54,558 bases of DNA from a virus: IMG/VR virus record IMGVR_UViG_3300027974_000045, positions 1 to 54,558 of that record; one strand, 5' to 3'. Below are positions 2,359-21,852 of the stretch, piece by piece (the stretch's first letter is position 1; the number at the start of each line of letters is the position of its first letter). The notes below the pieces were generated by a model. It was not told where the DNA came from, searched no databases, and was given only the letters and a program-made list of their open reading frames with translations. The position numbers and the translations under genes are program-made.

Positions 2359-2362
2359 GGGC

Positions 2363-2737: not shown

Positions 2738-2750
2738 TGGGCTCTCCTTA

Positions 2751-2786
2751 TGTCAAGCAGTTTACACTTTTGGGGGCAGGTGTCAA
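2751..2786 (-). promoter_or_regulatory. Candidate sigma70 promoter
   Basis: On the minus strand, TTGACA (2781-2786, overlapping the helicase stop codon), a 16-nt spacer, then TAAACT (2759-2764). The predicted start near 2752 leaves about 15 nt before the ATG at 2737, including AAGGAG. It would boost the replication genes from 2737 downward. No palindrome copy is nearby. Confidence 0.55.
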
Positions 2787-4976: not shown

Positions 4977-5341
4977 CGGACGACCAGCTTCGGCAGAAGG
5001 CGGATCAGGTCGTGCATGGCGCGGGGGCCGAAGCGCGGGATTTCCACCAGTATTGAGGTGATCTCGTCAGGCTCCAGTCCCTTGAACCGCATGAGCGGGA
5101 TACCCGCACGCTCGAGCGCCGCCGCCGTGCGTGGCTGCAGCTGCTGGTGCGCCTTGATGAACTCGGGGTCGTTCCCACCCACCAGCTCGGGCAGGCGTCT
5201 CTTGTACTCGCGAGCTGAGGACAGGAGCTTGTTCACCCGGTCGATGGACAGGTCCATCTTGAGGGCGACCTGCTCTTTCGTCAGGCCGAGGGATATGTAC
5301 TGAAGGACCTGCATGTCCTTTCGTTGAATGAAGCGGGCCAC
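4973..5341 (-). CDS. Small HTH/HhH-like putative DNA-binding protein
   Basis: I start at GTG 5339-5341, which has GGAGA 7 nt upstream, rather than the TTG at 5356. The product is 122 residues. The N-terminus looks like a LuxR/sigma-type helix-turn-helix (QYISLGLTKEQVALKMDLSIDRVNKLL). The C-terminus (GLEPDEITSILVEIPRFGPRAMHDL) resembles the helix-hairpin-helix of the RNA polymerase alpha C-terminal domain. It is a possible regulator or DNA-structure binder and a second candidate ligand for the dispersed palindromes. Both domain calls are by eye and need profile comparison. Confidence 0.5.
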   Translation of the reverse strand: MARFIQRKDMQVLQYISLGLTKEQVALKMDLSIDRVNKLLSSAREYKRRLPELVGGNDPEFIKAHQQLQPRTAAALERAGIPLMRFKGLEPDEITSILVEIPRFGPRAMHDLIRLLPKLVVR

Positions 5342-5343
5342 GG

Positions 5344-7408: not shown

Positions 7409-9307
7409 CTAGCTCCTCTCAACAGCTGTCATCGAGCCCCACGACTTCCCCATCTTCACGTCGACAGGGAAGGCGACAGGCAGGTCCACGCCCCACGCTT
7501 TCTTGTAGGGCAGGTTGTCCAGCAGGTGGCCGATCTGGTGAGCGGCCTTCTCTGCGTAGCGGTCGGGCACGATGATGAACACACCATCGTGCAGCTCATA
7601 CGAAAACCGGCCGTCGAACTTGGGCAGCCAGTCGCGCAGGGCCATGAGCCCGAGGTACTTCTGGTCAGCACCCGTGCCTTGGACGGGGCCGTTGATAGCC
7701 GTGCTCTCCATGGCCCATGACCAGTCGGCCCAGCCCGAGGGGTCGGCCGCGTCGGGCCTGATCCACGTGTCGCCCTTGCCGGTGTGGATGCGCCGGCCGG
7801 CGACGGTGGTGACGTAGCCCTCCATGCGTGCGGTCTTGCTCTGGCGGGCCCAGTAGGTGGGCACCCCGGGATAGGTCGAGCGGTAGGTGGCGTGGATGGC
7901 GCGCGCCTGCGGCAGCGTCAGGTCCAGCCCATACTGCACACGCGCCACGCGCTGCAGGGTTGGCGGGCTGGTGCGGTACTGGCACGAGAGGTTTCCGACC
8001 TTCCCCATCTGGCGGTACTGCTTGGCCTGCCTGTCGCCTTCCTTCACGGCGTCCATCATGGCGTGGTAGTTCTGCTCGGAGATGGCCGCACCCATGAACG
8101 CGTGGGCGTCCTCGCCCGGCATGCAGCGGGCGATCATCTCCCGGTCCTTGGACAGCACCGCCATCCAGCGGAACTCCTGCCCGGACCAGTCGGCCTCGAT
8201 CAAGGTGTAGCCGTCGGGTGCGAGGATCACGTCACGAAAGGCAGGGTCTCGCTTCCACTGGTGGAGAGCGATGCCCGTCGGCTTCTGCGCCTTGCCCTTC
8301 AGGATCGACGAGCTGTAGGTCATGCGCCCAGTGTAGGTGCCGGACACCCGGGCGGCGGGCCTGACCCGGCCGTCGTCGTTGTAGTTGGACGAGTTGACCG
8401 CACCCAAGGCAAACTTGGTGCGGTTGTTGGTGGCCTCGCGATAGTCGTTGAGCAGGCCGGCGCGTGGGTCCTCGAACGCCAGCTGGCTGAGGCTGTCACG
8501 GTCGGTGCTGTCGGCCCCCTTCTCGGTCTGCTTCACAGGCTTGAGGCCCCACTGTTTGAACAGCAGGTCACGCAGCTTGGTCGGCGACGCCAGCACCTCG
8601 ACGTCGACGGGTCCGCCGCATGCCATCGACAGCTTCACGTGGGCAAGGGTGGCGTCATCCAGCAGCTTCTCCGCCAACGTGGCGGCTGCGTTCCTGTCAA
8701 CCACCAGCCCCTCGACGTTGGCCTCGGCCACCATGGGCAGGCATGCCGCCTCGATGCGGGCGGCAACGCGCTGCTCGGGTGACATCATGTGCCAGAAGGT
8801 GTTGGCCAGCCACAGGGTATAGACGGCGTCCCGCTTGTTGTAGGTTGCCAGCTTGTCGAGGCCATCGGGTGACAGGTCGTCGTAGTCAACCCCGTCCTCG
8901 TAGCCTGCCATGCCCGGCATGAACTGGCGGACGGCATCCTTCAGGCCGTAGGACTTCGGCACGCCGTCAGCCATGGGGTGGCCGGCGGTGCAGTGCTTCC
9001 ACCACAGCATGGCGTCGGCCCACTTGCAGGCGAACACCTCCTCGCGCAGACCCATGGCGATCAGCCAGCCCATGTCGAACGGGGTGTTCCACCCGACGAT
9101 GGTCACGCCACGATCGGCGCAGTCCACCAGCCACGCACGCAGGGTCGCCTTGTCCGGCCGGCGCAGGCAGACAGCGCCGGTGACAGGCGAGGCCATGGCG
9201 CACATGGTCATGTAGGCAGCGCCCGACCGGGCGAGGTAGGGCTGTAGCCCTGCCCCCTCCCGGTCCCCGGTGGTCTCGACGTCGAAGGCTTCGAGTAGCG
9301 GGCTCAT
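7409..9307 (-). CDS. Family A DNA polymerase with 3'-5' exonuclease
   Basis: 632 residues; the ATG (9305-9307) overlaps the stop of the DnaA-like gene (ATGA). DEDD exonuclease motifs: ExoI FDVETTG (D9, E11), ExoII VGWNTPFDMGW and ExoIII YNKRDAVYT. Polymerase motifs: A TLIEADWSGQEFRW, B RQMGKVGNLSCQYR and C ELHDGVFI. It would be the replicative polymerase, fed by the AEP primase-helicase. Two oddities: motif C reads HDG instead of the usual HDE, and the O-helix ends YR instead of YG. The metal-binding aspartates of motifs A and C are present, so it should be active. There is no 5'-3' exonuclease domain. Confidence 0.95.
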   Translation of the reverse strand: MSPLLEAFDVETTGDREGAGLQPYLARSGAAYMTMCAMASPVTGAVCLRRPDKATLRAWLVDCADRGVTIVGWNTPFDMGWLIAMGLREEVFACKWADAMLWWKHCTAGHPMADGVPKSYGLKDAVRQFMPGMAGYEDGVDYDDLSPDGLDKLATYNKRDAVYTLWLANTFWHMMSPEQRVAARIEAACLPMVAEANVEGLVVDRNAAATLAEKLLDDATLAHVKLSMACGGPVDVEVLASPTKLRDLLFKQWGLKPVKQTEKGADSTDRDSLSQLAFEDPRAGLLNDYREATNNRTKFALGAVNSSNYNDDGRVRPAARVSGTYTGRMTYSSSILKGKAQKPTGIALHQWKRDPAFRDVILAPDGYTLIEADWSGQEFRWMAVLSKDREMIARCMPGEDAHAFMGAAISEQNYHAMMDAVKEGDRQAKQYRQMGKVGNLSCQYRTSPPTLQRVARVQYGLDLTLPQARAIHATYRSTYPGVPTYWARQSKTARMEGYVTTVAGRRIHTGKGDTWIRPDAADPSGWADWSWAMESTAINGPVQGTGADQKYLGLMALRDWLPKFDGRFSYELHDGVFIIVPDRYAEKAAHQIGHLLDNLPYKKAWGVDLPVAFPVDVKMGKSWGSMTAVERS

Positions 9308-9870
9308 GACGTCACCTCCAGCGCGTGGACGACGCGCTCGTTGTCCTCGCACAGCTGCAGCGCCGCCTCGTAGGTGTGCCAGCGCCGGGCCCGGTCGAGT
9401 GAGCGTGTGTAGGGTTTCACATAGCCGACGGGGGCGGCGTAGGCCCGCTGCCCCGACGTGCGCATGATGATCCACGGCATCTCGTCGGTCCTCGCCAGCC
9501 GCGCTGCGTGCTGGGTGCAGTTGTGCATGATCGAGCTGTGGTGGCGGTTCATGAACCTGCCGATCTGCGTGAACTTGTAGCCCTGCTGGCGCATCAGCCA
9601 GCACGCCTCGTTGCGGGCCAGCACGATCAGCCCACGGGGGCGGGGCGCGTCGCGCTCCAGCGGGGCGGCGATGCGCCCCGCTGGGATGTGGTAGCGGTGG
9701 GACACCCCTCTCAGGATGTCCGCCATGCTCGGGCGGGGCGGGGCTTTAACGTCGGCCCCTGCGACGGCGCTCGCCTCAGCGAAAGGAGTATTCTGATCGA
9801 GCGCAGCCGGTGATACTACCGCCTCGGAACCGGCTTGGCGGGTGACCCCTCCACGGGATGGGATAGACAT
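9304..9870 (-). CDS. DnaA domain IV-like initiator protein
   Basis: 188 residues. The middle (about 48-130) resembles the DNA-binding domain IV of DnaA: MADILRGVSHRYHI, then RGLIVLARNEACWLMRQQG, then FTQIGRFMNRHHSSIMHN, where RHHSSIMH aligns with the DnaA signature RDHSTVLHA. There is no AAA+ ATPase domain, so it would recognise DnaA-box-like DNA without an ATP switch. Possible roles are origin binding for the phage polymerase downstream, or titration of or competition with host DnaA. A near-consensus DnaA box lies in the control region at 18317-18325. A palindrome copy sits 33 nt upstream of the start. Confidence 0.75.
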   Translation of the reverse strand: MSIPSRGGVTRQAGSEAVVSPAALDQNTPFAEASAVAGADVKAPPRPSMADILRGVSHRYHIPAGRIAAPLERDAPRPRGLIVLARNEACWLMRQQGYKFTQIGRFMNRHHSSIMHNCTQHAARLARTDEMPWIIMRTSGQRAYAAPVGYVKPYTRSLDRARRWHTYEAALQLCEDNERVVHALEVTS

Positions 9871-9902
9871 TAGAGTGGTGTCCTTCGTGTTTCAAGCTGT
9901 GG

Positions 9903-9917
9903 ATTTACCGGGTAAAT
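9903..9917. repeat. 15-bp odd palindrome, copy 2
   Basis: ATTTACCGGGTAAAT in the 53-nt gap between the VWA gene stop (9924) and the DnaA-like gene start (9870). I see no convincing promoter in the gap, so this copy is well placed for control within an mRNA (roadblock or attenuation) or for a DNA-structural role. Confidence 0.9.
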
Positions 9918-9923
9918 CCCGGG

Positions 9924-11033
9924 TCAGAACATCTCGACGATCTCGCCCCACGGGGCCTTGCCGGACTGGGTGGTCGCCCACAGCACCGGATAGGCAGGGG
10001 CTGGGCCGAAGTCGTTGCAGCACAGGTCGGTCAGCACCACGGTCACGGCGGGCTCGATGCCTGCCTTGTCGATGTAGCTGAAGATCGGCGAGAAGGCAGT
10101 GCCGCCGCCGCCATGGGCAGCCACGGTCAGCTCCTCGTCGGGGCCGAACTCGTCGTGGTGCTGCACCCGGCTGTCGAAGTAGACGACGTGGGTGCGACGG
10201 GGCGAGCAGTCGCCGAGGATGGCGCGCATCTCTGCGGCAAACGCGGCCAGCTCCTTGGCCCCGATGGAGCCCGAGGTGTCGACGGCGATGACCACCTCAC
10301 CCATGCCCTCGCCGTCCCGGGTGGGGACGAGCAGGTCGTAGGTCAGGTAGACTTGGTTGAGGTTGGCGTAGCTGTAGTCGTCCTTGATCTTGGACGTCAT
10401 CCAGCGGCGCAGCACCTCCTGCCACGGAACCTTGGGGTTCAGCAGCTCGTCGACCATGCGGGCGATGTCGCCCGGCAGCTGGCCCCGCATCTTGGCGGCG
10501 TTGGCAGCCTGAGCCACGGCAGCCTTGACCTCGGCAGCCATGGCGGCAGCCTCCGACGGGTCGCCGGGCGCATCCATCACCTCGTCTAAGGCCGTGCCGT
10601 TGCCGGACGCACCGCCGCCACCACCCTTGGGCTGGTCAGGCAGGAGGTTGTAGACGCCGACGGTGTCCTTGCCACGGGCGACGAGGTCAGGATCGTTGAG
10701 CCCGATGGATGGCATGCGGCCGACGCCTGCCTTGATCAGCATGTCGTTGATCACATAGTCGGCGGCGATGTTCCACTTCTGTGGGTCACGGTCGCCACGG
10801 CGCAGCATGTGCTGGAACACGCAGTGCATGACCTCGTGGCAGCAGACGAACACGGTCTCGTCGACAGACATGCTGTCGACAAAGGCAGGGTTGAACCAGA
10901 TGGTCTTGCCATCGGTCGCCATGGTGGGGATCGTGGTGCTCTCGACGAGGGGCATCTTGAGCATGAGGGTGGCGAAGAAAGCGTGCCAGAGCATGAGCTG
11001 GCCGCGGGCCTTGGTCATCTTGTCCATGGACAT
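9924..11033 (-). CDS. VWA-like metallopeptidase partner of the MoxR ATPase
   Basis: 369 residues. The N-terminal zincin-like half has ETVFVCCHEVMHCVFQH (HExxH). A Gly/Ala-rich linker (GGGGGASGNG) follows, then a VWA-like domain with the MIDAS signature VIAVDTSGSIG and later VVLTDLCCND. This zincin plus VWA layout is typical of the DUF2201-type proteins that pair with MoxR AAA+ ATPases. Here the MoxR gene lies two genes upstream in the same transcript. Together they may form a metal-dependent chaperone or protease module acting on phage or host complexes. The function in phages is not established. Confidence 0.85.
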   Translation of the reverse strand: MSMDKMTKARGQLMLWHAFFATLMLKMPLVESTTIPTMATDGKTIWFNPAFVDSMSVDETVFVCCHEVMHCVFQHMLRRGDRDPQKWNIAADYVINDMLIKAGVGRMPSIGLNDPDLVARGKDTVGVYNLLPDQPKGGGGGASGNGTALDEVMDAPGDPSEAAAMAAEVKAAVAQAANAAKMRGQLPGDIARMVDELLNPKVPWQEVLRRWMTSKIKDDYSYANLNQVYLTYDLLVPTRDGEGMGEVVIAVDTSGSIGAKELAAFAAEMRAILGDCSPRRTHVVYFDSRVQHHDEFGPDEELTVAAHGGGGTAFSPIFSYIDKAGIEPAVTVVLTDLCCNDFGPAPAYPVLWATTQSGKAPWGEIVEMF

Positions 11034-11069
11034 TGGGGTAGCCTTTCAGGTTGGGGTGTAAAGAATTGG

Positions 11070-11105
11070 GTAACTAAAACTACGGCGGATAGGCATAGCT
11101 GTCAA
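11070..11105 (-). promoter_or_regulatory. Weak candidate promoter upstream of the VWA gene
   Basis: On the minus strand, a perfect TTGACA (11100-11105) with TAGTTT (11077-11082) 17 nt further on. The -10 match is poor. The ATG of the VWA gene is at 11033. Listed because the -35 is exact and in the right place. Confidence 0.3.
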
Positions 11106-11358
11106 GCGCGCCGAACGCTTGCATTACCTCGAACGCAGCCTTGGCCGAGGTGATGTCAGGGAAGGGGCCGGAGATGGTCTTGCCCCGGCCCTTGGTGATC
11201 AGGATGTTCGTGAGCGGGTCGACACGGGTGACGATCCAGTAGTTCTTTTCCCACTGCTCGATGAACACCCGAGGGGGGTGTGGCACCTCGGGGTGCCACT
11301 GGCTGAAGGTCCCCTCGGGGCGGACGTGACGGCGGTGACGCCACTCACCGAGCGCCAT
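11080..11358 (-). CDS. Hypothetical protein in the MoxR-VWA cluster
   Basis: A 92-residue basic, His/Trp-rich protein (MALGEWRHRRHVRPEGTFSQWH) with a compact C-terminal half rich in beta-type sequence (NYWIVTRVDPLTNILITKGRGKT). It overlaps the upstream gene by 14 nt and has a strong GGAGG, so it is clearly part of the cassette. No family recognised. Confidence 0.6.
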   Translation of the reverse strand: MALGEWRHRRHVRPEGTFSQWHPEVPHPPRVFIEQWEKNYWIVTRVDPLTNILITKGRGKTISGPFPDITSAKAAFEVMQAFGALDSYAYPP

Positions 11359-12193
11359 ACATTTCCTCCATCTTTGCCATCATGTCGGCCATCTCGTCGA
11401 CCACGGCCTCACGCTTGTGCGGCTGGACCCGCAGCTGGCCCGGGGTGTGGGCGCAGAGCGAGCCCTGCAGCCTGACACGCATGGCCTCGAGGTGAGGGTC
11501 GTCGGTCAGGTTGAGGCTGGGCAGGATGCTCACCAACTCCTGCGCGTTCTCGACGAGGCTGTCACGGAACACGTTCTCCGGGCCGGACAGGCGCTCGTGG
11601 GCCTTGGCCACCACGTCGTGGATGCGTGACCACGCCTCACGCATGGCCTCCTCGGTGTTGGCGCTGATCTGTGCGGTCAGCTGCTCACGCAGGTCCTTGA
11701 TGGCGTCGTCGCCGAGCGAGACCCGGAAGTCATCGCCGACCGGCATGAACGCCACCTCGAACCGGAACCGCCGGCGCAGCTCGTACACCGACGGGTAGTC
11801 AGCGTCGCTGTACATGCCGCCCAGCCGCTGGGGTGCGGCCGCCTTGAGTGCGGGGTAGTCCTGCATGAAGTGGTCGGCGACGCCCTCCCACTGCGACTTG
11901 TAGTCGCCGAGCCGCTTGGCGAAGGCCATGTAGCCGACCGCCTTGCAGATGCGGGCGACCGGGCCCCACGGCAGGGTGTTGGCGAGGAAGTAGGTGCGCA
12001 CCTCGCCGGTGAGCTTCTGCAGGTCGGCGAGGCTGGCAGCGCCGGGCAGCAGGGACTTGTTGACCCGGGCCACGTCGTTGCGGATGCCGTGCTTGGCGGC
12101 GACGTCGAGGGTCTCGCGCTTGTCCAGCTTGCGGGCGGACCACTGCGACATGTTGAGCGATACGAGGAGGGCGCGATCTGCGAGGGAAGTCAT
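11345..12193 (-). CDS. DUF3150-like protein of the MoxR-VWA cassette
   Basis: 282 residues, mostly helical. The opening DRALLVSLNMSQWSARKLDK, then NDVARVNKSLLP and a long helical C-terminus (DEMADMMAKMEEMYG), recall the DUF3150-type proteins that accompany MoxR ATPases and VWA proteins in phage and plasmid cassettes. I make the family name tentatively. It sits between the ATPase and the VWA protein, so it is likely an adaptor or substrate of the complex. It has a good AAGGAGA Shine-Dalgarno; a palindrome copy and a GC hairpin lie upstream. Confidence 0.6.
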   Translation of the reverse strand: MTSLADRALLVSLNMSQWSARKLDKRETLDVAAKHGIRNDVARVNKSLLPGAASLADLQKLTGEVRTYFLANTLPWGPVARICKAVGYMAFAKRLGDYKSQWEGVADHFMQDYPALKAAAPQRLGGMYSDADYPSVYELRRRFRFEVAFMPVGDDFRVSLGDDAIKDLREQLTAQISANTEEAMREAWSRIHDVVAKAHERLSGPENVFRDSLVENAQELVSILPSLNLTDDPHLEAMRVRLQGSLCAHTPGQLRVQPHKREAVVDEMADMMAKMEEMYGAR

Positions 12194-12215
12194 GTGGTAG
12201 TCTCCTTGGGTGTGC

Positions 12216-12236
12216 GGGGCCCCACCATGGGGCCCC
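12216..12236. repeat. GC hairpin between MoxR and DUF3150-like genes
   Basis: GGGGCCCCA (12216-12224), loop CCA, TGGGGCCCC (12228-12236): a perfect 9-bp stem with no T-run, directly beside the palindrome at 12239-12253. It could be an RNA processing or pausing structure that sets the ratio of the cassette proteins. Confidence 0.6.
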
Positions 12237-12238
12237 TG

Positions 12239-12253
12239 ATTTACCGGGTAAAT
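12239..12253. repeat. 15-bp odd palindrome, copy 3
   Basis: ATTTACCGGGTAAAT in the gap between the MoxR stop (12260) and the DUF3150-like start (12193). Confidence 0.9.
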
Positions 12254-12259
12254 GGGGTA

Positions 12260-13258
12260 TCAGGCCCCGGCGATCATCTTGCCGGTGGTGATGGCCCACT
12301 TGATGAACGTCTTGCTCTCCTGCAGCTTGGGCAGGCGGGCAACCACGTCACCGATGACGACCGCCGAGAACTCGGCGGGCAGGCGGTTCACGAATGTCAT
12401 CACGTCGGCGAAGTTCGCCTCGGTGGTGGCCATGGCCAGCGAGCTGGCGACAGCGAACCGGATGTCCGGCTTCTCCGGCACCGGGTGGGTGTCGGGGGCC
12501 TTGAGGATGTCCGAGATGCGGGGCAGGTCACGCCACATCCGCATGTGGGCCTTGAACTCTGCGGCCGGGCCCTCGCCGACAGCTCCGGCGAACAGCTCGT
12601 ACTCGAGGTGCTCGGGCAGCTGGCCGATGAACGGCGAGATACCCTCGGCCCACGCACGGGGCGTGGGGTTGATGTCCCGGTTGGGGTCGAAGCTGTGCAG
12701 CAGGTCGGTCTTGAACCTCAAGAACGCGATCAACTCCATGCGCACACCGGCCGGGATAGCCCACGCCACCCAGTCGTCGAGGCTGACATCGTAGGTCAGC
12801 GTCGTCATGCGGTTGCGCAGGTGGGACAGGATGCGGTTGGCCCCGGCCCTGTCACTGGCGCGGTTGCCGGTCATGACGATCGACCAGCCAGCCTTGAGCT
12901 TGTGCCCGTGGATTTCCCGCTCCTGCACAAGGTTGGCGAGGATTTTCTGTATGGCGTTGTCCGCCTGCGGGGCCTCGTCGATCAGGATCACGCCAGCGTC
13001 CGGGTAGTCGGTACCCTCCAGCGGCCAGCAGGAGTTGGCGATGAAGTTATAAGACAGGCGGTCAACGCTCGGCATGCCGAGCGCGACATGCTCGGGCAGC
13101 ATGGTCGGCGCATGGAAGAGCAGGATCGGCAGGCCCATGGACTTGGCCACCTGCTGCACCACCTGCGTCTTGCCGCCGCCGGGGGGGCCTTCGATCATGA
13201 CCGTGCGACGGCCGGTGATCATGACGCGGAGGACATTGGAAAGGTCGGAGGGTTTCAT
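12260..13258 (-). CDS. MoxR-type AAA+ ATPase
   Basis: 332 residues. Walker A EGPPGGGKTQ (K30), Walker B VILIDEAPQAD, sensor-1-like SIVMTGNRASD and arginine-rich LSHLRNRM. The order and the PxxxxxEH substrate-loop region (TMLPEHVALGMPS) match MoxR-family chaperone ATPases. Such ATPases typically act with a VWA protein encoded nearby, as here (9924-11033). It has its own strong sigma70 promoter and a 5' UTR containing a palindrome copy and a 5' hairpin, so the module looks independently controlled. Confidence 0.85.
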   Translation of the reverse strand: MKPSDLSNVLRVMITGRRTVMIEGPPGGGKTQVVQQVAKSMGLPILLFHAPTMLPEHVALGMPSVDRLSYNFIANSCWPLEGTDYPDAGVILIDEAPQADNAIQKILANLVQEREIHGHKLKAGWSIVMTGNRASDRAGANRILSHLRNRMTTLTYDVSLDDWVAWAIPAGVRMELIAFLRFKTDLLHSFDPNRDINPTPRAWAEGISPFIGQLPEHLEYELFAGAVGEGPAAEFKAHMRMWRDLPRISDILKAPDTHPVPEKPDIRFAVASSLAMATTEANFADVMTFVNRLPAEFSAVVIGDVVARLPKLQESKTFIKWAITTGKMIAGA

Positions 13259-13276
13259 TGGGTAGTTCCTTCAGTG

Positions 13277-13291
13277 ATTTACCGGGTAAAT
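13277..13291. repeat. 15-bp odd palindrome, copy 4 (5' UTR)
   Basis: ATTTACCGGGTAAAT at about +35 to +49 from the predicted start of the MoxR promoter and 19 nt before the ATG. Bound protein here would act as a roadblock rather than occlude the promoter. Confidence 0.9.
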
Positions 13292-13304
13292 CCCGGCGGG
13301 GTTG

Positions 13305-13325
13305 GCGATGGGTGTGTTCCCATCG
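13305..13325. other. 5'-end hairpin of the MoxR transcript
   Basis: CGATGGG (13305-13311) pairs with CCCATCG (13319-13325), followed on the plus strand by TTTT. In the leftward mRNA it falls at the extreme 5' end, where such hairpins can protect against decay. Confidence 0.45.
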
Positions 13326-13361
13326 TTTTAATAGTATAGCAGAAGTTGCAGTCTATGTCAA
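13326..13361 (-). promoter_or_regulatory. Sigma70 promoter for the MoxR-VWA cassette
   Basis: On the minus strand, TTGACA (13356-13361), exactly 17 nt, then TATACT (13333-13338). The predicted start is near 13326, 68 nt before the MoxR ATG. The best promoter match in the window. Confidence 0.8.
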
Positions 13362-13576
13362 GACCCCTCACAGTATTCGACCGGGACCTGTGAGTAGAGC
13401 CATGCTGCTGCCTTCAGGTAACCTTGGGCAGCCAGTGTCTTTGCTACGGCGGCGATCGTGTCACCTGATATGTCAGCCGCAAGCTGGCGGCTGTGACCTG
13501 TGATGGTCTGGCCGGTCAGCACCTCGGTAAAGAACGCGCGCTGGGTAGCAAGCGAGCAGGTGTCATGCAGGGTCAT
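13358..13576 (-). CDS. Small hypothetical protein
   Basis: A 72-residue protein (MTLHDTCSLATQRAFFTEVLTGQ), helical and rich in Ala/Leu. Its stop overlaps the -35 of the MoxR promoter, so it ends the array transcript's last gene before the MoxR unit. It lacks the GD-V signature of its neighbours. Function unknown. Confidence 0.55.
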   Translation of the reverse strand: MTLHDTCSLATQRAFFTEVLTGQTITGHSRQLAADISGDTIAAVAKTLAAQGYLKAAAWLYSQVPVEYCEGS

Positions 13577-13805
13577 CGGGGTTCTCCATCTCTAGGGGTT
13601 CGACCTCGCGGTCGTGAGCGGGCCATGTGTTGCCCGGCCATTCCGCCCGCTTGTGTGGGTCCGGGTGCGGGACCAGCAGTCGGAGCAGCAAGGGGTAGTG
13701 TCCCGGGTTGTTTGCCTTAACCACGACAGCGACGTGCCCCCTCACAGGCCCGTCCACGCCCTTGCCCTTGATCCTCACCCAGTCGCCGACCTTGAACTCA
13801 CTCAT
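13563..13805 (-). CDS. SH3/KOW-like small protein, array member
   Basis: 80 residues, MSEFKVGDWVRIKGKG, with GPVRGHVAVVVKANN behind it. The start F-K-V-G-D-W-V-R-I-K is the hallmark of small SH3/KOW-like beta-barrels. AAGGAG lies upstream. It is the last member of a set of twelve related genes between 13.5 and 17.5 kb. Function unknown; protein- or nucleic-acid-binding adaptors are the usual fate of this fold. Confidence 0.65.
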   Translation of the reverse strand: MSEFKVGDWVRIKGKGVDGPVRGHVAVVVKANNPGHYPLLLRLLVPHPDPHKRAEWPGNTWPAHDREVEPLEMENPDDPA

Positions 13806-13984
13806 CTCGGCAGCTCCTTCAAGGCCGCACGCACCTCCCGCTCCAGCTGGCGCAGGTCCTCACGGGCCCGGGCTACCATGGTGTCGGTGGTCCACCCGTG
13901 GGTGGTGTTGTGGGCGGTGAGCGCCCGGGTTTTTATTGACAGCAGCAGGTCCTTGGCCTGCGGGGACAGGACGACGTAGGTCAT
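13802..13984 (-). CDS. Small helical hypothetical protein
   Basis: 60 residues from ATG 13982-13984 (GGAGA just upstream, ATGA overlap with the previous stop). MTYVVLSPQAKDLLLSIKTRAL, then a long charged helix (AREDLRQLEREVRAALKEL). It does not carry the SH3-like signature. Function unknown. Confidence 0.6.
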   Translation of the reverse strand: MTYVVLSPQAKDLLLSIKTRALTAHNTTHGWTTDTMVARAREDLRQLEREVRAALKELPR

Positions 13985-14202
13985 GGGGTCTCCTCCAGAA
14001 GTTTGAAGTGATCGGTTGAGAGGTACAGGTAGGTGCGGCCCTGTCCCCGCAGGTAGTCGCGGACGTAGGGTGTCGGGCACAGCGGACGGACGGCGACGCC
14101 TCCGTTCAGGAAGCGAGTGCGGTCTTCGACGACCACGCAAACCATGTCCTTGTAGCGGCCGGCAGTGCAGCAAACGACGACATCACCCGGTTGGAAAGTC
14201 AT
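13981..14202 (-). CDS. SH3/KOW-like small protein, array member
   Basis: 73 residues, MTFQPGDVVVCCTAGRYKDMVCVVVEDR. The barrel signature F-x-P-G-D-V-V opens the protein, and a second strand pair (NGGVAVRPLCPTPYVRDYL) resembles the member at 14463-14726 (NTPVRPLVAAPPVRAHL). These two are therefore the closest pair in the array, most likely a duplication. AGGAGG lies upstream. Confidence 0.65.
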   Translation of the reverse strand: MTFQPGDVVVCCTAGRYKDMVCVVVEDRTRFLNGGVAVRPLCPTPYVRDYLRGQGRTYLYLSTDHFKLLEETP

Positions 14203-14473
14203 CGGGTCCTCCTATCCTTGTCAGTTCGCTGGCGCGCATCTCCGTGAGCTGGCCGGGGGCGGGGCGTGTCCAGTTGTCCCTCGCAGGGTTGCCCACCAGT
14301 ATCACGATCGACGCCACCCAGTGCCCGTAGGTGCCGGGCGTGAGGATGCAGTGCTGGACGATGTAGGTGTGGCCCTCACCCCTGCTCTCGGTGATGCGGA
14401 CCACATCCCCCTCCTTGAGCGGGGGCGGGGGCTCGGTCGAGGGGGCGGGTTTCGATCTGGGTTTACGTGCCAT
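14183..14473 (-). CDS. SH3/KOW-like small protein with basic N-terminal tail
   Basis: 96 residues. A Lys/Pro-rich tail (MARKPRSKPAPSTEPPPP) precedes the signature LKEGDVVRITESRG and the strand-rich GHWVASIVILVGNPARDNW. The basic tail suggests nucleic acid or membrane contact. It overlaps its neighbours by 20 and 11 nt. Confidence 0.6.
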   Translation of the reverse strand: MARKPRSKPAPSTEPPPPLKEGDVVRITESRGEGHTYIVQHCILTPGTYGHWVASIVILVGNPARDNWTRPAPGQLTEMRASELTRIGGPDDFPTG

Positions 14474-14726
14474 CTGGGTTCTCCACGAGTTGTAGCCATG
14501 CGGTCTTGAGCAACAGGTAATCCCTACCGACCTCGTTCAAGTGTGCCCGGACGGGGGGTGCGGCCACCAGCGGGCGCACCGGGGTGTTGCCCTGCATCGA
14601 GTAGGGGGGGTCGGGCGGATACTCGATCACGACACCAACCATGCCCTTGTACCTTTTGCGGTACTCGGGACTGGGCGGCAAGCCTTTGGAGAAGCACACG
14701 ACGTCTCCTATCTTGAAGTCAGTCAT
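14463..14726 (-). CDS. SH3/KOW-like small protein, start abutted by a palindrome
   Basis: 87 residues, MTDFKIGDVVCFSKG, then YKGMVGVVIEYPP and NTPVRPLVAAPPVRAHL. It is paralogous to 13981-14202. The ATG has no recognisable Shine-Dalgarno; a palindrome copy (14730-14744) occupies that position instead, 3 nt upstream. Translation may rely on coupling to the upstream gene, whose stop lies inside this gene. Confidence 0.65.
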   Translation of the reverse strand: MTDFKIGDVVCFSKGLPPSPEYRKRYKGMVGVVIEYPPDPPYSMQGNTPVRPLVAAPPVRAHLNEVGRDYLLLKTAWLQLVENPDGT

Positions 14727-14931
14727 CTGTTTTACCCGGTAAATACGGGTCCTCTACTAAGGTGAAGCTGTTGGGGTAGTCTCTGAGGCGGGGCTTGTCC
14801 CACCAGTAGGGTACGCCCAGCAGGAACCGCACCGTGATGGTGCCGTCCCCGGTGTGGGTGGTGACCACGACCCCCAGCTCCTCCCCCTCGTACTTGTAGC
14901 GGACGAGGTCGCCGGGCTTGAGCCTCACCAT
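14719..14931 (-). CDS. SH3/KOW-like small protein ending in palindrome-encoded residues
   Basis: 70 residues from ATG 14929-14931 (GGAGG upstream). MVRLKPGDLVRYKYEGEELGVVVTTH, a clear barrel opening, then TVRFLLGVPYWWDKP. The C-terminal YLPGK is encoded by the palindrome at 14730-14744, which suggests that the gene's end was extended or rewritten by the repeat. Confidence 0.65.
   Translation of the reverse strand: MVRLKPGDLVRYKYEGEELGVVVTTHTGDGTITVRFLLGVPYWWDKPRLRDYPNSFTLVEDPYLPGKTDD
14730..14744. repeat. 15-bp odd palindrome, copy 5 (one outer mismatch)
   Basis: TTTTACCCGGTAAAT; the 13-bp core TTTACCCGGTAAA (14731-14743) is perfect and has a central C on the plus strand. It encodes YLPGK of one gene and takes the place of a Shine-Dalgarno for the next. 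Confidence 0.85.
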
Positions 14932-15212
14932 GCCAGTGGCCTCCGCTCGTGGGCCATGCGCAGCAGGCATGTTGTGTCCCAGCACGCTACCACGCGGTGT
15001 GCAATGTGGGCGGCCGAGATGGAGCGGTCGCCAAGCAGGGTGTCTGGCAGGGTGGCGAGGTCCCGCCGCACCTTGTCACTGGCGTCGGTCGTCCAGAGAT
15101 GGGCAGCGTCGAGGGCCTCGCCGATGGCGTGGAACAGCAGTTGCCTGACCGTGTCGGCGGACATGGGTGCGGGGCGGGTATGGTGGGTGGGTGTGGGGGT
15201 CGTGGTTACCAT
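14925..15212 (-). CDS. Helical hypothetical protein in the array
   Basis: 95 residues from ATG 15210-15212, chosen because AAGGAG lies 7 nt upstream; the ATG at 15218 (ATGA overlap) has the Shine-Dalgarno too close. A Thr/Pro/His-rich start is followed by helical MSADTVRQLLFHAIGEALDAAHLW and SISAAHIAHRVVACWD. No SH3 signature, no family recognised. Confidence 0.55.
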   Translation of the reverse strand: MVTTTPTPTHHTRPAPMSADTVRQLLFHAIGEALDAAHLWTTDASDKVRRDLATLPDTLLGDRSISAAHIAHRVVACWDTTCLLRMAHERRPLAW

Positions 15213-15214
15213 GG

Positions 15215-15466
15215 TCATTCTCCTTCGGGGTCTAGGGGCATGGGGGTTACTTCGTTGGCGTTGAACCACCAGCCGCCGCTGGCATACGCGTCCGGGTCAC
15301 CACGCTGGGCGAGCGAGGGATCGAACGTGCCAAGGAACCGCAGCTTGACGCCGTCGGGACCTGTATCCACCACCATCCCGGCGGCAGGCAGGGCGAAGGG
15401 CGGCTGGCCCCGGCTGTATTGTTTCACGGGCACGAGGGCCCAGTCGCCTATCTTGAAGTCAGTCAT
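15215..15466 (-). CDS. SH3/KOW-like small protein, array member
   Basis: 83 residues, MTDFKIGDWALVPVKQ, then GMVVDTGPDGVKLRFLGTF and GGWWFNANEVTPM. The start MTDFKIGD is identical to that of 14463-14726, direct evidence of common origin. GGAGA lies upstream. Function unknown. Confidence 0.65.
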   Translation of the reverse strand: MTDFKIGDWALVPVKQYSRGQPPFALPAAGMVVDTGPDGVKLRFLGTFDPSLAQRGDPDAYASGGWWFNANEVTPMPLDPEGE

Positions 15467-15740
15467 CGTCGGTCTCCAGTGCCTCTAGGTTCCTGATCTG
15501 GTAGTGGGCCCGGCCTCCGTTCGCGAACCGCACGCCGACGGTCCACTCCGGCTGGGCTTCAGCCAGCCGCACCTCCTCGGCCGAGTACTTGTCGACCGCC
15601 GTCAGCGCGTCCTTGTGGTACATGCTGAACAGGTTCTCGATCCACCCCACCCAGCCGGGCTCGCCGTAGCCGTCGTAGGCATCGTAGGTGTCGGCGATCC
15701 GCACGGGCAGGCCGACATACAGTTTTGTGCCGCGTTTCAT
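15459..15740 (-). CDS. SH3/KOW-like small protein, divergent member
   Basis: 93 residues, MKRGTKLYVGLPVRIADTYDAYDGYG, with the barrel pattern VGxPVRIA but no Asp after the Gly. The C-terminus (WTVGVRFANGGRAHYQIRNLEAL) resembles the closing strands of YodC/KOW-type small proteins. GGAGA lies upstream. Confidence 0.6.
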   Translation of the reverse strand: MKRGTKLYVGLPVRIADTYDAYDGYGEPGWVGWIENLFSMYHKDALTAVDKYSAEEVRLAEAQPEWTVGVRFANGGRAHYQIRNLEALETDDD

Positions 15741-15961
15741 GGCTCATTCTCCACGAGGGTCAGCCGGCTGACATGGGTGAAACCCCCATGGGCTATGACG
15801 CCGGCGTCGAGGGCGGGGTGCGGCAGCAGGGGCTTGAGCCACCGCTCGTGCGTGCCCTCGGGCAGCTTGTCGGAGCCCCACGGGACCACGACAAACAGGC
15901 ACCCCTTGAAGTGGGCGTTGTCGTTGATGGCGACGACGTCGCCTATCTTGATGTCAGCCAT
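15737..15961 (-). CDS. SH3/KOW-like small protein, array member
   Basis: 74 residues from ATG 15959-15961 (GGAGA upstream). MADIKIGDVVAINDNAHFKGCLFVVVPWG, a good match to the set's opening, ending THVSRLTLVEN. It overlaps its upstream neighbour by 8 nt. Confidence 0.65.
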   Translation of the reverse strand: MADIKIGDVVAINDNAHFKGCLFVVVPWGSDKLPEGTHERWLKPLLPHPALDAGVIAHGGFTHVSRLTLVENEP

Positions 15962-16142
15962 CGATGATCTCCATCTCGTGGGCCCACATGGCCTGCTGCT
16001 CGGCACCGTCGACAAACCTGACGACCTGCGGCAACAGGCCGTCGAGGACCCACCCCACCTTGCCGACGTAGCTGATGGGGGTAGCCCCCTCGACGATGCG
16101 GACGAGGGAGCCGACGGGCAGGCTGGTATTGTGAACTCTCAT
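15954..16142 (-). CDS. SH3/KOW-like minimal protein
   Basis: 62 residues, the shortest member: MRVHNTSLPVGSLVRIVEGATP, YVGKVGWVLDG and VVRFVDGAEQQAMWAHEMEII. It shows the five-strand barrel pattern with nothing else attached and can serve as the array's core domain. Confidence 0.65.
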   Translation of the reverse strand: MRVHNTSLPVGSLVRIVEGATPISYVGKVGWVLDGLLPQVVRFVDGAEQQAMWAHEMEIIDG

Positions 16143-16363
16143 GGGGTTGGGACCTTTCTCAGGTGGATGGGGCGGTGGTTCGAGGTGTTGCCGTCCACTC
16201 CCCGCATGGTGGCGTACCAGATGCCCGAGTTATGGTACTTGTCGAACTTGACGACCCATCCGAACCACTGGCGCCTGCTGCCAAACACGACATAGTCGCC
16301 GACCTTGAGCCCGTTGTGGGCTTTGATGCGGCGTGGGCGGGATTTACCGGGTAAATCAGCCAC
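16139..16363 (-). CDS. SH3/KOW-like small protein with palindrome-encoded N-terminus
   Basis: 74 residues from GTG 16361-16363, the only usable start; AAGGG lies upstream. The first residues MADLPGKS are encoded by the palindrome at 16342-16356, before the barrel opening LKVGDYVVFGSRRQWFGWVVKF. The GTG overlaps the stop of the preceding gene. Confidence 0.6.
   Translation of the reverse strand: MADLPGKSRPRRIKAHNGLKVGDYVVFGSRRQWFGWVVKFDKYHNSGIWYATMRGVDGNTSNHRPIHLRKVPTP
16342..16356. repeat. 15-bp odd palindrome, copy 6
   Basis: ATTTACCGGGTAAAT overlapping the stop of the 142-residue gene by one base and encoding LPGK near the N-terminus of the next protein. Confidence 0.9.
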
Positions 16364-16784
16364 GGCCCTTGCCCCCGTGGATTTCGGTGGTCTGCAGTAT
16401 CTCGGCCATCCGGCGCATGTTCCGCGCCCGGGTCTCCGCCTCGATGGCCGGCTCCTTTACCACGCGCCAGTGCAGGCGGACGGCGTCCCGCATGGCGAGA
16501 AAGATCGCACGCTCGGCCTCGTAGCGGCCACGTCCGTCGGCCGCCATGTCGCCACCCGAGGGGAGCGAGTGGGTGCCCTCACGGGCGATCAGGTGGTATG
16601 CCTCCGCCTCGGCGGCAGGGGCCTCGACCCCACGGTTTGCGGCGTTGACGAGGTCGAGCCCCGCCAGCGCCATGCGGCGCACGATGTGGCCCCACTCAAG
16701 CGCGGGGTTGCGCATGGCCGCCATCATGGCGTCGAGGATGTCGGTGGCGTCGCGGTAGCCATAGCCGTTGTTCGGGGTGGTCAT
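16356..16784 (-). CDS. Hypothetical helical protein
   Basis: 142 residues, MTTPNNGYGYRDATDILDAMMAAMRN, largely helical with acidic and basic patches. No family recognised. It is the first gene downstream of the strong promoter at 16865-16900 and has AAAGGA before its ATG. It is not SH3-like. Its position suggests early expression. Confidence 0.65.
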   Translation of the reverse strand: MTTPNNGYGYRDATDILDAMMAAMRNPALEWGHIVRRMALAGLDLVNAANRGVEAPAAEAEAYHLIAREGTHSLPSGGDMAADGRGRYEAERAIFLAMRDAVRLHWRVVKEPAIEAETRARNMRRMAEILQTTEIHGGKGRG

Positions 16785-16809
16785 GGTGTCAGTCCTTTCA
16801 GGGTCAGGG

Positions 16810-16824
16810 ATTTACCGGGTAAAT
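16810..16824. repeat. 15-bp odd palindrome, copy 7 (5' UTR)
   Basis: ATTTACCGGGTAAAT at about +41 to +55 of the promoter at 16865-16900 and 26 nt before the ATG at 16784. The placement mirrors copy 4. Confidence 0.9.
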
Positions 16825-16864
16825 GGGTCGGGCCCGGCACTGGTTGGGAGGGGTCTCTCAACAC

Positions 16865-16900
16865 AACCTGTATTATGGCACATTTGTGATGCTATGTCAA
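16865..16900 (-). promoter_or_regulatory. Sigma70 promoter within the array
   Basis: On the minus strand, TTGACA (16895-16900), exactly 17 nt, CATAAT (16872-16877); predicted start near 16865. The bases after the -35 (TTGACATAG) are the same as in the MoxR promoter. It lies in a 157-nt gap (16785-16941) that otherwise holds only palindrome copy 7. Confidence 0.75.
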
Positions 16901-16941
16901 TGGTTGTGTTAATGGATGGGGCCACGGCTGGATGCCGTATG

Positions 16942-17190
16942 TCAGGGTGTGGGGGCCTTCTGGAGCTCGTCGTAGCCGAACCACCACGTCTCGCCGCTGA
17001 CGATATGCCGGCACTTGCAGGTGCTGGAGGCAAGGTCGATCACCACCAGCAGTGACGGGGACTTCATGACAGGCGGGGTGCGCAGCAGGCGACCACCCGT
17101 CAGGGCCGTGATGCTGTCCAGCCGCCACGGGTTGGCGCAGGTGACCACGTCACCTAGGGCGAAGGGGGCTGCGAGGTCGTGGTCAGTCAT
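16942..17190 (-). CDS. SH3/KOW-like small protein, start abutted by a palindrome
   Basis: 82 residues, MTDHDLAAPFALGDVVTCANPWRL, with strand-rich LLVVIDLASSTCKCRHIVSGETWWFGYDEL. It has no Shine-Dalgarno; palindrome copy 8 (17195-17209) lies 4 nt before the ATG. It overlaps the upstream gene by 8 nt, so coupling is likely. Confidence 0.6.
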   Translation of the reverse strand: MTDHDLAAPFALGDVVTCANPWRLDSITALTGGRLLRTPPVMKSPSLLVVIDLASSTCKCRHIVSGETWWFGYDELQKAPTP

Positions 17191-17524
17191 GGGGATTTAC
17201 CGGGTAAATGTCGTCGCCGATGACCCACTTGTGGGTGCCATCGACCATGCGGATGATCCACGCAGGCGTCATGACGAAGGTATCGGAGGCGAGGGGGTGC
17301 GTGGGCTCGGCGCGGGGGTAGAGGCTCACCACCCACCCCACGGAGCCTTCGGGGTGAATGTTGGCGATCGCGTAGCTGGAGCCAGAGAGACGCCACCCCG
17401 GCTCGTGGGGTATGGGCGTAGCCGTGCGGGCCAGACGGCGCTTGAGCGCCACGCAGTCGCCGGGGGCGAAGGCGGGCTCAGGTGTGGGCGCAGGGTTGGT
17501 AGGGTGTCGGGGTGTGGGGGGCAT
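17183..17524 (-). CDS. SH3/KOW-like protein, first gene of the leftward block, probably leaderless
   Basis: 113 residues. A Pro/Thr-rich N-terminus (MPPTPRHPTNPAPTPEP) precedes the barrel signature FAPGDCVALKRR and VGWVVSLYPR. The ATG is only a few nt from the predicted transcription start and has no Shine-Dalgarno, so the mRNA is probably leaderless. The C-terminal IYPVNPHD is partly encoded by palindrome copy 8. As the promoter-proximal gene it should be among the first phage proteins made. Confidence 0.6.
   Translation of the reverse strand: MPPTPRHPTNPAPTPEPAFAPGDCVALKRRLARTATPIPHEPGWRLSGSSYAIANIHPEGSVGWVVSLYPRAEPTHPLASDTFVMTPAWIIRMVDGTHKWVIGDDIYPVNPHD
17195..17209. repeat. 15-bp odd palindrome, copy 8
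   Basis: ATTTACCGGGTAAAT; encodes IYPVN at the end of the first leftward gene and sits 4 nt before the next ATG. Confidence 0.9.
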
Positions 17525-17525
17525 G

Positions 17526-17559
17526 AAGCGAGATTATGGCCGGGGCCGGGAAATGTCAA
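17526..17559 (-). promoter_or_regulatory. Main leftward promoter of the control region
   Basis: On the minus strand, TTGACA (17554-17559) and CATAAT (17533-17538), with a short 15-nt spacer. The predicted start near 17526 is almost at the ATG (17524). Palindrome copy 9 lies 10 bp upstream of the -35. The short spacer may make it dependent on an activator. Confidence 0.6.
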
Positions 17560-17569
17560 CTGCTTGACC

Positions 17570-17584
17570 ATTTACCCGGTAAAT
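17570..17584. repeat. 15-bp odd palindrome, copy 9 (upstream of leftward promoter)
   Basis: ATTTACCCGGTAAAT, 10 bp upstream of the leftward -35, an activator-like position. The layout mirrors copy 10 at the divergent promoter. Confidence 0.9.
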
Positions 17585-17588
17585 CGCT

Positions 17589-17625
17589 TCACGCTATGTC
17601 TGCCCACAGACATAGCGTGATTTTT
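17589..17625 (+). terminator. 14-bp perfect hairpin with T-run (rightward terminator form)
   Basis: TCACGCTATGTCTG (17589-17602), loop CCCA, exact complement (17607-17620), then TTTTT. By sequence it is a canonical intrinsic terminator for rightward transcription, yet no rightward gene lies to its left. It may insulate the control region from antisense transcripts, or be a structural element of an origin. Confidence 0.7.
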
Positions 17626-18453
17626 AGGGGTGCGCAAGCGGAAACGCCACGAGGGGGCTCGCGCAGCGCCCGGGGACACCACCGGGGGACGAATGCGCGC
17701 TGAAAATGGTTGAGAATCGTGGTTTTTGGAGGAAAAAGTGTAGGGATTTCGGGGACTTGCCAGAGATGTCTAAGATGTACGCCTTTTTTGAGGGTGTCGG
17801 GGTTTTGGGGCCATTTTTGGCCGGGATGGGGGGTAAACTGGACGGTCACATCCAAACAACCCTAAATTAGGGACCAAAAAAAGTGGGATTGGTTTTACAA
17901 CCTAACAAATCAATGAATACAGCTTTTGTGGTTTATCTTTTTTCCTAACCCATTGGTTTCGTTGGATTTCTCCGATGGCTTCCCGCCGGCCCCCCCGCGT
18001 GCATCGCACCTAGCAGGGTACCCGTTCGGGCTAAGTGGTTGATTCTTATGACATACACGTAACCCGTCGCCAATTGCACAATTGTCGCCCAATATCGGGG
18101 CTCCGCCCCGGACCCCGGCAAACCCCCGTGGCGTAAGGATTTCCGGCTCATTTCCCTGTGACCGATTTATAACCGTAAATATCGCCCTCCGGCCACATGT
18201 TCCGCTATACATGCCGGGGTTTTATGCGCAGTTGCTAATGTATGCAGCCCCCGGGTGTATTTCGCAACCTGATCGGGTATTTCAAATAGTTCCACCGTCC
18301 AAAAATGAAACCCAGTCTATCCACATTTCGATGCGGTATGCCCAGATCGGGTATGTTTTCGTGCAACCCACGATCACATATGCCCGCCTACGCCTGCCCG
18401 GCCCGCGCGCCCCACACATGTGCGGTTTCCTCTTAGGGCGGCGCGGCGCTGGC
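17626..18453. other. Non-coding control region, possible replication origin
   Basis: No convincing gene: the short open frames lack Shine-Dalgarno sites and coding character. The stretch is richer in A/T runs than its surroundings. It contains an odd palindrome CCCTAAATTAGGG (17860-17872), a CAATTG-CA-CAATTG doublet near 18072-18085, a GGGGC-TCC-GCCCC hairpin near 18097-18110, a repeated GATCGGGTAT (18271-18280 and 18345-18354) and the DnaA-box-like CTATCCACA (18317-18325). Divergent promoters flank it. An origin or a small RNA locus is plausible. Confidence 0.5.
18317..18325 (+). promoter_or_regulatory. DnaA-box-like site
   Basis: CTATCCACA, one base from the consensus TTATCCACA. A single near-match can be chance, but the phage encodes a DnaA domain IV-like protein and this is its largest non-coding region. 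Confidence 0.35.
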
Positions 18454-18468
18454 ATTTACCCGGTAAAT
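18454..18468. repeat. 15-bp odd palindrome, copy 10 (upstream of rightward promoter)
   Basis: ATTTACCCGGTAAAT, 9 bp upstream of the rightward -35 at 18478. Confidence 0.9.
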
Positions 18469-18477
18469 GCCGCCCCC

Positions 18478-18513
18478 TTGAATGTGGGCGGATGGGGCCC
18501 TATCTACTTGTGA
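18478..18513 (+). promoter_or_regulatory. Rightward early promoter
   Basis: TTGAAT (18478-18483), 17 nt, TATCTA (18501-18506); start near 18513, 43 nt before the ATG at 18556. The -10 is imperfect, which fits activation from the adjacent palindrome. Confidence 0.6.
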
Positions 18514-18555
18514 CCGGCGCATTCCGCGACCGGCCAAACCGAAAGAGACCTCACC

Positions 18556-19984: not shown

Positions 19985-20404
19985 ATGAGTGACACCGACT
20001 ACGACCTTCAGAAGGTGATGGACACCTACCGGCGCGATGGCTCGCTCATTCGCGAGAAGGCGCGCGTGCTGGTGGAGAAATGGCTGGATCAGGTCTATCC
20101 GCGGATGATCAGCGACGAGACGCCGACGTCCGTGCTCCTTGACATGGGCAAGGCGCTCATGGAGTTGGGCGACCTGAAGCCCAAGAACCAGCCCGTCCTC
20201 CAGCAACAAGGCGCGGGGTTCAGCATCACGATCAACGTGCCGAGCCCCAACGGGGGCAAGCCGGTGGTGATCGAGGGCACAATGACCCCGCAGCCGCCCC
20301 CGCTGGAGGTGGATTTCGACGCGCTGCCGCCGGCCCCAGCGTGGCTGACGCACGACAGCCGCACGCCCAACGCCGAGCTGGCGTTGCCGGAGGATTATGA
20401 GTGA
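19985..20404 (+). CDS. Putative terminase small subunit
   Basis: 139 residues. A helical N-terminal region (YDLQKVMDTYRRDGSLIREKARVLVEKWLDQVYPRM) is followed by a beta/linker segment and an acidic tail. Position directly before the large terminase with a coupled overlap, length and helical make-up suit a DNA-recognising small terminase. Sequence similarity to a named family is not obvious to me. Confidence 0.55.
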   Translation: MSDTDYDLQKVMDTYRRDGSLIREKARVLVEKWLDQVYPRMISDETPTSVLLDMGKALMELGDLKPKNQPVLQQQGAGFSITINVPSPNGGKPVVIEGTMTPQPPPLEVDFDALPPAPAWLTHDSRTPNAELALPEDYE

Positions 20405-21852
20405 GCAGCCTCACCTACAACCCGCCGCCGTCGATCTCCGGCTTCCTGACCAGCGAGAAGTTCATCTCACTGGCGGTGGGGCCAGTCGGGAGCACCAAGA
20501 CCACGGCAGCCCTGATGAAGATCGCCTACCACGCCAAGCGCATGGCCCCTTGTCGCGACGGTATCCGACGCTCGCGAGCCATCGTCATCCGCAACACGCG
20601 CGAGCAGCTGCGGGACACCACGATACCGGACCTTTTCAAGTGGTTTCCTCCAGACATCGCCGGCACTTACCTCAAGACCGAGTACAAGTTCGAGCTGCGG
20701 TTCGACGACGTGGTGTGCGAGGTGCTCTTTCGGGGGCTCGACGACACAAATGACGTCCGGCGGCTGCTGTCCCTGCAGGCTTCCTTCGGTGTGATGGACG
20801 AGTTTCGGGAGATCAACCCCCTCATTTTCGAGGCCCTGCAGGGCCGTTTGGGCCGCTATCCCGACGGGATGATGGTGCCGCACCGCCCAGAGTGGGGCGT
20901 GGATGCCAAGGGAAACCCGGTTCAGGGGTGCGTGACGGACGACGGGACGCCGAACCAGCACCTGTGGGGGGCGACAAACCCGCCGGATGCCGACACGTTC
21001 TGGGAAAAGTTCCTTAGCGACCCGCCGGTCAACGCCGAGGTGTTCTTCCAGCCGTCGGGCCTGAGCCCCGAGGCCGACTGGGTGCAGCACCTGCCCCAGA
21101 ACTACTATGAGAACCTCGCCGAGGGTAAGTCCCCCGACTGGGTGGACGTCTACATCCACGCAAAGTTCGGCCGGTCGCTCTCGGGGCAGCCGGTGTTCCC
21201 CAGTTTCAAGGCCGACTTCCATGTGGCCAAGAACCCCCTCGTGCCCATAAAGGCGACGGAGCGGCCGCTCATCATCGGCATGGATTTCGGGCTCACCCCC
21301 GCCTGCTGCATCTCGCAGGTGGACATGATGGGGCGGCTGCTGACGTTTGACTGCCTCGTGAGCGAGGGGATGGGGCTGACGCGGTTCCTGAACGAGAAGC
21401 TCAAGCCCCTGCTGGCCCAGAAGTACCCGGGCCTGCGAGCCGTGGTGGTGGGCGACCCCGCCGGGGTGCAGCGCTCGCAGACCGACGAGCGGACATGCTA
21501 CGACATCCTGCGGGCCGAGGGGTTTCACGCCCTGCCGGCGCGGACGAACAGCATCGTGGCGCGGGTCAACGCCGTGGAGAAGTTCATCAGCCGCCAGATC
21601 GACGGCAAGGCCGCATACCTGCTGGACCCGGGCCCGGGGTGCCGGCCGCTGGTGAAGGCCATGCGGGGCGGCTACCGCTACAAGATGAAAAAGGACGGCA
21701 ACGTGGAGCCGACGCCCGACAAGGGGCCGGACAGCCACATCGCCGACGCCCACCAGTACGCCTGCCTGCACGCCGACGGCGGGGACATGACAGGCCGGGT
21801 GACCGACGCCCGGCGGGAAATCGTGAAGGTCAGCCACGTCGGCTGGACGTGA
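20401..21852 (+). CDS. terL: Terminase large subunit
   Basis: 483 residues starting at GTG 20401, overlapping the previous stop (GTGA). ATPase: Walker A GPVGSTKTT (27-35), an adenine-binding-type segment (IVIRNTREQLRDTT) and Walker B FGVMDEFREI. Nuclease: RNase H-like IIGMDFGLTPACC with its first catalytic Asp, VVGDPAG with the second, and SHIADAHQYA near the end. It powers DNA packaging into the procapsid and cuts the concatemer. The length is typical. Given the circularly permuted assembly, headful packaging is plausible, but the sequence alone does not prove it. Confidence 0.93.
   Translation: MSSLTYNPPPSISGFLTSEKFISLAVGPVGSTKTTAALMKIAYHAKRMAPCRDGIRRSRAIVIRNTREQLRDTTIPDLFKWFPPDIAGTYLKTEYKFELRFDDVVCEVLFRGLDDTNDVRRLLSLQASFGVMDEFREINPLIFEALQGRLGRYPDGMMVPHRPEWGVDAKGNPVQGCVTDDGTPNQHLWGATNPPDADTFWEKFLSDPPVNAEVFFQPSGLSPEADWVQHLPQNYYENLAEGKSPDWVDVYIHAKFGRSLSGQPVFPSFKADFHVAKNPLVPIKATERPLIIGMDFGLTPACCISQVDMMGRLLTFDCLVSEGMGLTRFLNEKLKPLLAQKYPGLRAVVVGDPAGVQRSQTDERTCYDILRAEGFHALPARTNSIVARVNAVEKFISRQIDGKAAYLLDPGPGCRPLVKAMRGGYRYKMKKDGNVEPTPDKGPDSHIADAHQYACLHADGGDMTGRVTDARREIVKVSHVGWT

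Follow-up and report, generated by a model that had tools for sequence, protein, structure and literature searches.

Phage early regions contain many host-facing genes of undescribed role, and the small genes that open the leftward block of this viral record raise the question of whether they are copies of a single gene and what their products do in the infected cell. The window, by which we mean the whole stretch of DNA analysed here, spans all 54,558 bases of an IMG/VR virus record. The portal protein encoded there shares 37% identity with its counterpart in Rhizobium phage RHph_TM3_14A and about 27% with the portals of HMO-2011 and Roseobacter CRP phages. Based on these portal relatives, we infer that the unclassified phage is podovirus-like; DNA comparison identified no named relatives of the record. 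The leftward block encodes PolA, a DUF2201 metallopeptidase/VWA protein, a protein with a weak match to DUF3150, and a MoxR-type AAA+ ATPase, and because of this gene content the block is probably early. The array of small genes is located at the start of the block, upstream of MoxR, and both gene order and promoter-like sites place it at the promoter-proximal end, the position of a host-takeover module. Elsewhere in the record, an ORF at 42258–51476 on the plus strand encodes a very large protein of 3072 aa, residues 1–1247 of which gave no match to PHROGs at E 0.01.

The first-pass annotation had described an array of twelve small SH3/KOW-like paralogues and interpreted them as adaptors for host interaction or anti-defence, each aimed at a target of its own. 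The analysis partly confirmed the observation and partly supported the interpretation. Twelve minus-strand ORFs with an SH3/KOW-like pattern (A–L) are present between 13563 and 17524, and all of them have coding-type codon-position GC (GC3 0.74–0.87). Four further genes (x1–x4) lack the pattern; x2–x4 are interspersed with the twelve, and x1 follows them. For E, H, x2, and x3, translation probably begins inside the ORF as originally listed. From right to left, the features are as follows.

17570–17584, no strand assigned: palindrome ATTTACCSGGTAAAT upstream of L
17183–17524, minus: L, 113 aa, opening gene of the leftward block, SH3-like domain preceded by a Pro-rich N-terminus
16942–17190, minus: K, 82 aa, divergent SH3-like paralogue, 8-nt overlap with L
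16872–16900, minus: sigma-70-like promoter site TTGACA-17-CATAAT ahead of x4, 11 of 12 matches
16356–16784, minus: x4, interspersed, not SH3-like by the profile test, with its own sigma-70-like promoter site
16139–16363, minus: J, SH3-like paralogue, GTG start overlapping the x4 stop, pI 10.4
15954–16142, minus: I, 62 aa, SH3-like paralogue
15737–15961, minus: H, 74 aa, SH3-like paralogue, start MADIKIGD
15459–15740, minus: G, 93 aa, SH3-like paralogue
15215–15466, minus: F, 83 aa, SH3-like paralogue, start MTDFKIGD
about 14925–15218, minus: x3, interspersed, not SH3-like by the profile test
14719–14931, minus: E, 70 aa, SH3-like paralogue, likely start MVRLKPGD
14463–14726, minus: D, 87 aa, SH3-like paralogue, start MTDFKIGD, structure modelled
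14183–14473, minus: C, 96 aa, SH3-like paralogue, Pro-rich N-terminus
13981–14202, minus: B, 73 aa, SH3-like paralogue, 49% identity to D
13802–13984, minus: x2, interspersed, not SH3-like by the profile test
13563–13805, minus: A, 80 aa, SH3-like paralogue, start MSEFKVGD
13358–13576, minus: x1, last small gene ahead of MoxR, not SH3-like by the profile test
13361–13333, minus: promoter-like site belonging to MoxR, from the promoter scan
12260–13258, minus: MoxR-type AAA+ ATPase, the next gene after x1

The twelve genes had been said to overlap head to tail throughout. Every junction from x4 to x1 does overlap, by 4–20 nt, and so do L and K, but x2, x3, and x4 interrupt the twelve, and K and x4 are separated by a gap of about 157 bp that contains a sigma-70-like site. 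Therefore, the array probably comprises two transcription units, L-K and x4 to x1. The promoter scan returned sites at chance level, but the one at 16900–16872 occupies a leader position. A TTGACA-17-TAATCT element before L, at about 17556–17528, was read by eye and is absent from the scan output. Just upstream of L, a hairpin at 17589–17620 has a stem of 14 pairs and, on the plus strand, is followed by a T-run; a similar hairpin is present in a sibling contig (L022).

The structures of two of the twelve proteins, D and K, were modelled with the paralogues as the alignment; for the other ten, the fold is predicted from profiles. The AlphaFold2 model of D is a small, five-stranded SH3-like barrel (pLDDT 83, pTM 0.74). 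Nearly all of its structural matches are SH3-like barrels, including Spt5/NusG KOW domains, ribosomal eL21, PWWP, PsaE, and YorP, with low scores (Z no higher than 6.5, best Foldseek E 0.015). A search of PDB sequences with D gave no match. YorP of Bacillus subtilis (2heq), which is encoded in prophage SPbeta, is likewise a small SH3-like protein, but its identity to D is 13–15%. Structure prediction, one of the checks proposed in the first-pass annotation, thus gave a good model for D but a poor one for K (pLDDT 61, pTM 0.49). For K, PWWP, SH3, Agenet, Tudor, and NDH-subunit barrels make up most of the top Foldseek matches. Some of these barrels belong to larger proteins, among them kinases and the fucosyltransferase FUT8, and the matches are no more than a weak indication that K is an SH3-like barrel. 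The fold says nothing about function, since small phage proteins often have SH3-like starts.

Neither an anti-defence family nor any other named family was matched in Pfam and PHROGs by the twelve proteins, or in NCBIfam and PADLOC by the ten searched (all except I and J); none of these libraries focuses on anti-defence families. Most members have a neutral to acidic pI, and J alone is clearly basic. The promoter-proximal place, the small size, the mostly neutral to acidic charge, and the lack of matches to catalytic families make it plausible that the proteins are host-interaction or anti-defence adaptors with a target each. Alternatively, they may bind nucleic acid or the transcription or translation machinery in the manner of KOW domains and modulate host RNA polymerase, the nucleoid, or the ribosome. 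Spt5/NusG KOW domains and eL21 rank with the closest structural matches of D, and the T4 protein MotB provides a precedent, as this DNA-binding protein has a predicted KOW domain and was found to copurify with H-NS (PMC7827196). MotB is comparable to the array members as an early protein of a phage for which a KOW/SH3-like domain is predicted, but it has two domains, binds DNA, and does not belong to an array (PMC7827196, PMC6070864). However, the Z-scores of D are low and common to many unrelated SH3-like folds, and the KOW family is absent from the Pfam matches of all twelve proteins. The charge of most members mildly disfavours plain nucleic-acid binding. We regard the KOW-type role as unlikely, although less so than the other alternatives considered here, and retain adaptors of host or defence proteins as the preferred reading.

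Whether the twelve genes form one family was assessed by leave-one-out profiles, in which a profile built from eleven members scores the twelfth. None of the 1000 shuffles or 4056 decoy ORFs scored as high as A, B, D, E, H, K, or L, and the scores of C, F, G, I, and J were reached by 0–9 of the 1000 shuffles and 4–12 of the 4056 decoys. The interspersed genes x1–x4 fail against both shuffles and decoys. In the all-against-all comparison, 11 of 66 pairs within the twelve had p≤0.01, versus 0 of 48 pairs between the twelve and x1–x4. The shared pattern proposed from reading the genes is thus beyond chance, and the similarity held in profile comparison. Few single pairs are clearly similar, B and D being the strongest with 49% identity, and pair support clusters in D, B, H, F, A, and E, and in G with L, I, and J. 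A similarity between x2 and x3 was dropped, as its z of 5.5 with over-long starts fell to 2.6 once these were trimmed. A regular expression for the first-strand motif matched 12 ORFs within 4 kb, and the runner-up among about 165 loci had 5. This count is biased by selection because the expression was written after the array genes had been read; the leave-one-out test is less affected.

Traces of duplication are also preserved in the DNA. A 36-nt repeat recurs at four gene junctions (A, D, F, and H), and codon 6 is ATA in D, F, and H, a codon that accounts for 19 of the 471 Ile codons counted (4%). The repeat and the rare codon point to real duplication; therefore, A, D, F, and H at least look like true duplicates. 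D and F have the identical start MTDFKIGD, as had been noted. However, starts of the type M[TA]D[FI]K[IV]GD were found in many unrelated small phage proteins in a scan of IMG/VR, so similar starts mean little alone, and we rejected MTDFKIGD as a family signature.

Most pairs lack pairwise similarity, and some members may be convergent rather than homologous. Alternatively, B, D, H, F, A, and E would be true paralogues, and C, G, I, J, K, and L would be SH3-like proteins acquired independently and serving unrelated roles. The concentration of pair support in two groups and the occurrence of SH3-like small proteins with similar starts in many unrelated phages speak for such a mixture. Nevertheless, all twelve proteins match profiles built without them, whereas their interspersed neighbours do not, and no other locus examined has an equal density of such genes, so that we consider independent acquisition improbable. 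The profile tests, one good model, and the DNA duplication traces support the view that an SH3/KOW-like family in the early block has expanded and is old and divergent, and the structural side of this reading is fairly well supported.

The distribution of the family was examined in related phages. The sibling contig L022 matches the window with 72% identity over 17499–18538 and, within part of the terminase gene (20401–21852, plus strand), with about 90%. Its block opens with the beginning of a homologue of L, two of the palindromes are at matching places, and the contig ends there. A cousin, L053, is 67–73% identical over parts of the leftward block, but contains no recognisable array between the divergent region and MoxR. 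A matching array was found at 0 of 80 MoxR loci from viral contigs, some of which extend little upstream of MoxR. Neither tblastn with D nor an IMG/VR scan with B and D identified a relative, named ones in the case of tblastn, and the twelve-member profile, which gave 12 matches in the window used as a control, had no match in 11 related records. Two weak partial profile matches among 385 genomes of the Bradyrhizobium class were read as chance. The array looks lineage-specific.

A different family of small paralogues, AMLLG, is present in the corresponding stretch of the related RHph_TM3_14A, where 13 strong profile matches were found, most of them at 21.6–25 kb, upstream of its MoxR. AMLLG and AMLLG-like genes were recorded at the following places.

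Rhizobium phage (L115), 21650–25026, also 33759 and 37507: AMLLG small paralogues
Bradyrhizobium assembly (L182), 1674–5877: about eight AMLLG-like proteins upstream of MoxR, identified by reading

The profile of the Rhizobium-phage family does not reach the Bradyrhizobium proteins, and the kinship between the two is suggested by motif reading. Three AMLLG members that were tried had no Pfam or PHROG match. Profile comparison with hhalign showed the SH3-like and AMLLG families to be unrelated. At another locus, L057, at least eight small paralogues (LxPGxKxKC...RFTLDL) at 9789–16788 are interleaved with, and located downstream of, the MoxR/DUF3150/DUF2201 genes. They had been taken by eye for SH3-like proteins, an assignment that profile comparison did not support (probability 3.5%). 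The possibility that the array supplies substrate adaptors to the MoxR AAA+/DUF3150/DUF2201 (VWA-metallopeptidase) module of the phage just downstream is suggested by its location immediately before MoxR on the same strand and by the arrays in L057 and the Rhizobium phage, but it is very doubtful, because most phages with the module have no detectable array, the array families are unlike in sequence, and MoxR is preceded by a promoter-like site of its own.

The lineage-specific presence of the array and the different paralogue family in the corresponding stretch of the Rhizobium phage add to the plausibility of host-facing adaptors. We tentatively favour, at slightly below even likelihood, a single-domain SH3/KOW-like family that was duplicated and diverged, with its loops re-aimed at different host or defence proteins. 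One gene for an SH3/KOW-like barrel would have been duplicated, and the copies would have diverged strongly. Encoded promoter-proximally in leftward, probably early, operons, the barrels would serve as stable binding scaffolds whose loops differ between members. Early in infection, the members may then engage distinct host (or defence) proteins and act as a host-takeover or counter-defence module of the phage. If this is true, the dozen diverged copies provide a compact, testable set for the re-aiming of one scaffold at host or defence proteins.

The unrelated AMLLG array in the corresponding stretch of the Rhizobium phage fits a site for fast-turnover host-facing cargo. We speculate, with low expectation, that a cassette site upstream of MoxR in this group of podoviruses carries arrays of one fold each, SH3-like here and AMLLG in the rhizobial phage, which are swapped between lineages and diversified by duplication and recombination at conserved junctions between genes, each member having its own host target. 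The change of family at the corresponding place in relatives would show where such genes can be sought.

One parallel among the systems compared is the host takeover module of phage SPO1, for which the source passages describe 26 mostly small early genes and the adaptor-like Gp53, which binds ClpC (PMC6873191). The module, like the array, brings together small early genes, for many of which no target is known; unlike the array, it is not described in those passages as one single-fold family, and phenotypes have been demonstrated for it (PMC6873191). Nip of phages phi3T and rho11 is a counter-defence protein with predicted SH3-like domains (PMC11984713). As described, it differs from the array members in being the 279-aa product of a single gene, with two SH3-like domains and one HU-like domain (PMC11984713).

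The palindrome ATTTACCSGGTAAAT occurs in 11 copies in the window, at 24, 3815, 9903, 12239, 13277, 14730, 16342, 16810, 17195, 17570, and 18454, four of which (17195, 16810, 16342, and 14730) are inside the array. Nine copies are exact and two have one change; 0.12 copies are expected at up to three mismatches. The copies mostly adjoin start codons of the leftward block, and all eight located at 9.8–17.6 kb are near a start codon, compared with a random fraction of 0.21 for a proximity window that was set after looking. The repeats of Cluster O mycobacteriophages are likewise short, palindromic, and often intergenic, and ATTTACCSGGTAAAT is a putative operator- or stoperator-like element. The minus-strand gene at 9304–9870, downstream of a palindrome, matches the DnaA C-terminal helix-turn-helix with an E of 3e-7, just below the curated cut-off, and its product is a candidate regulator or replication initiator.
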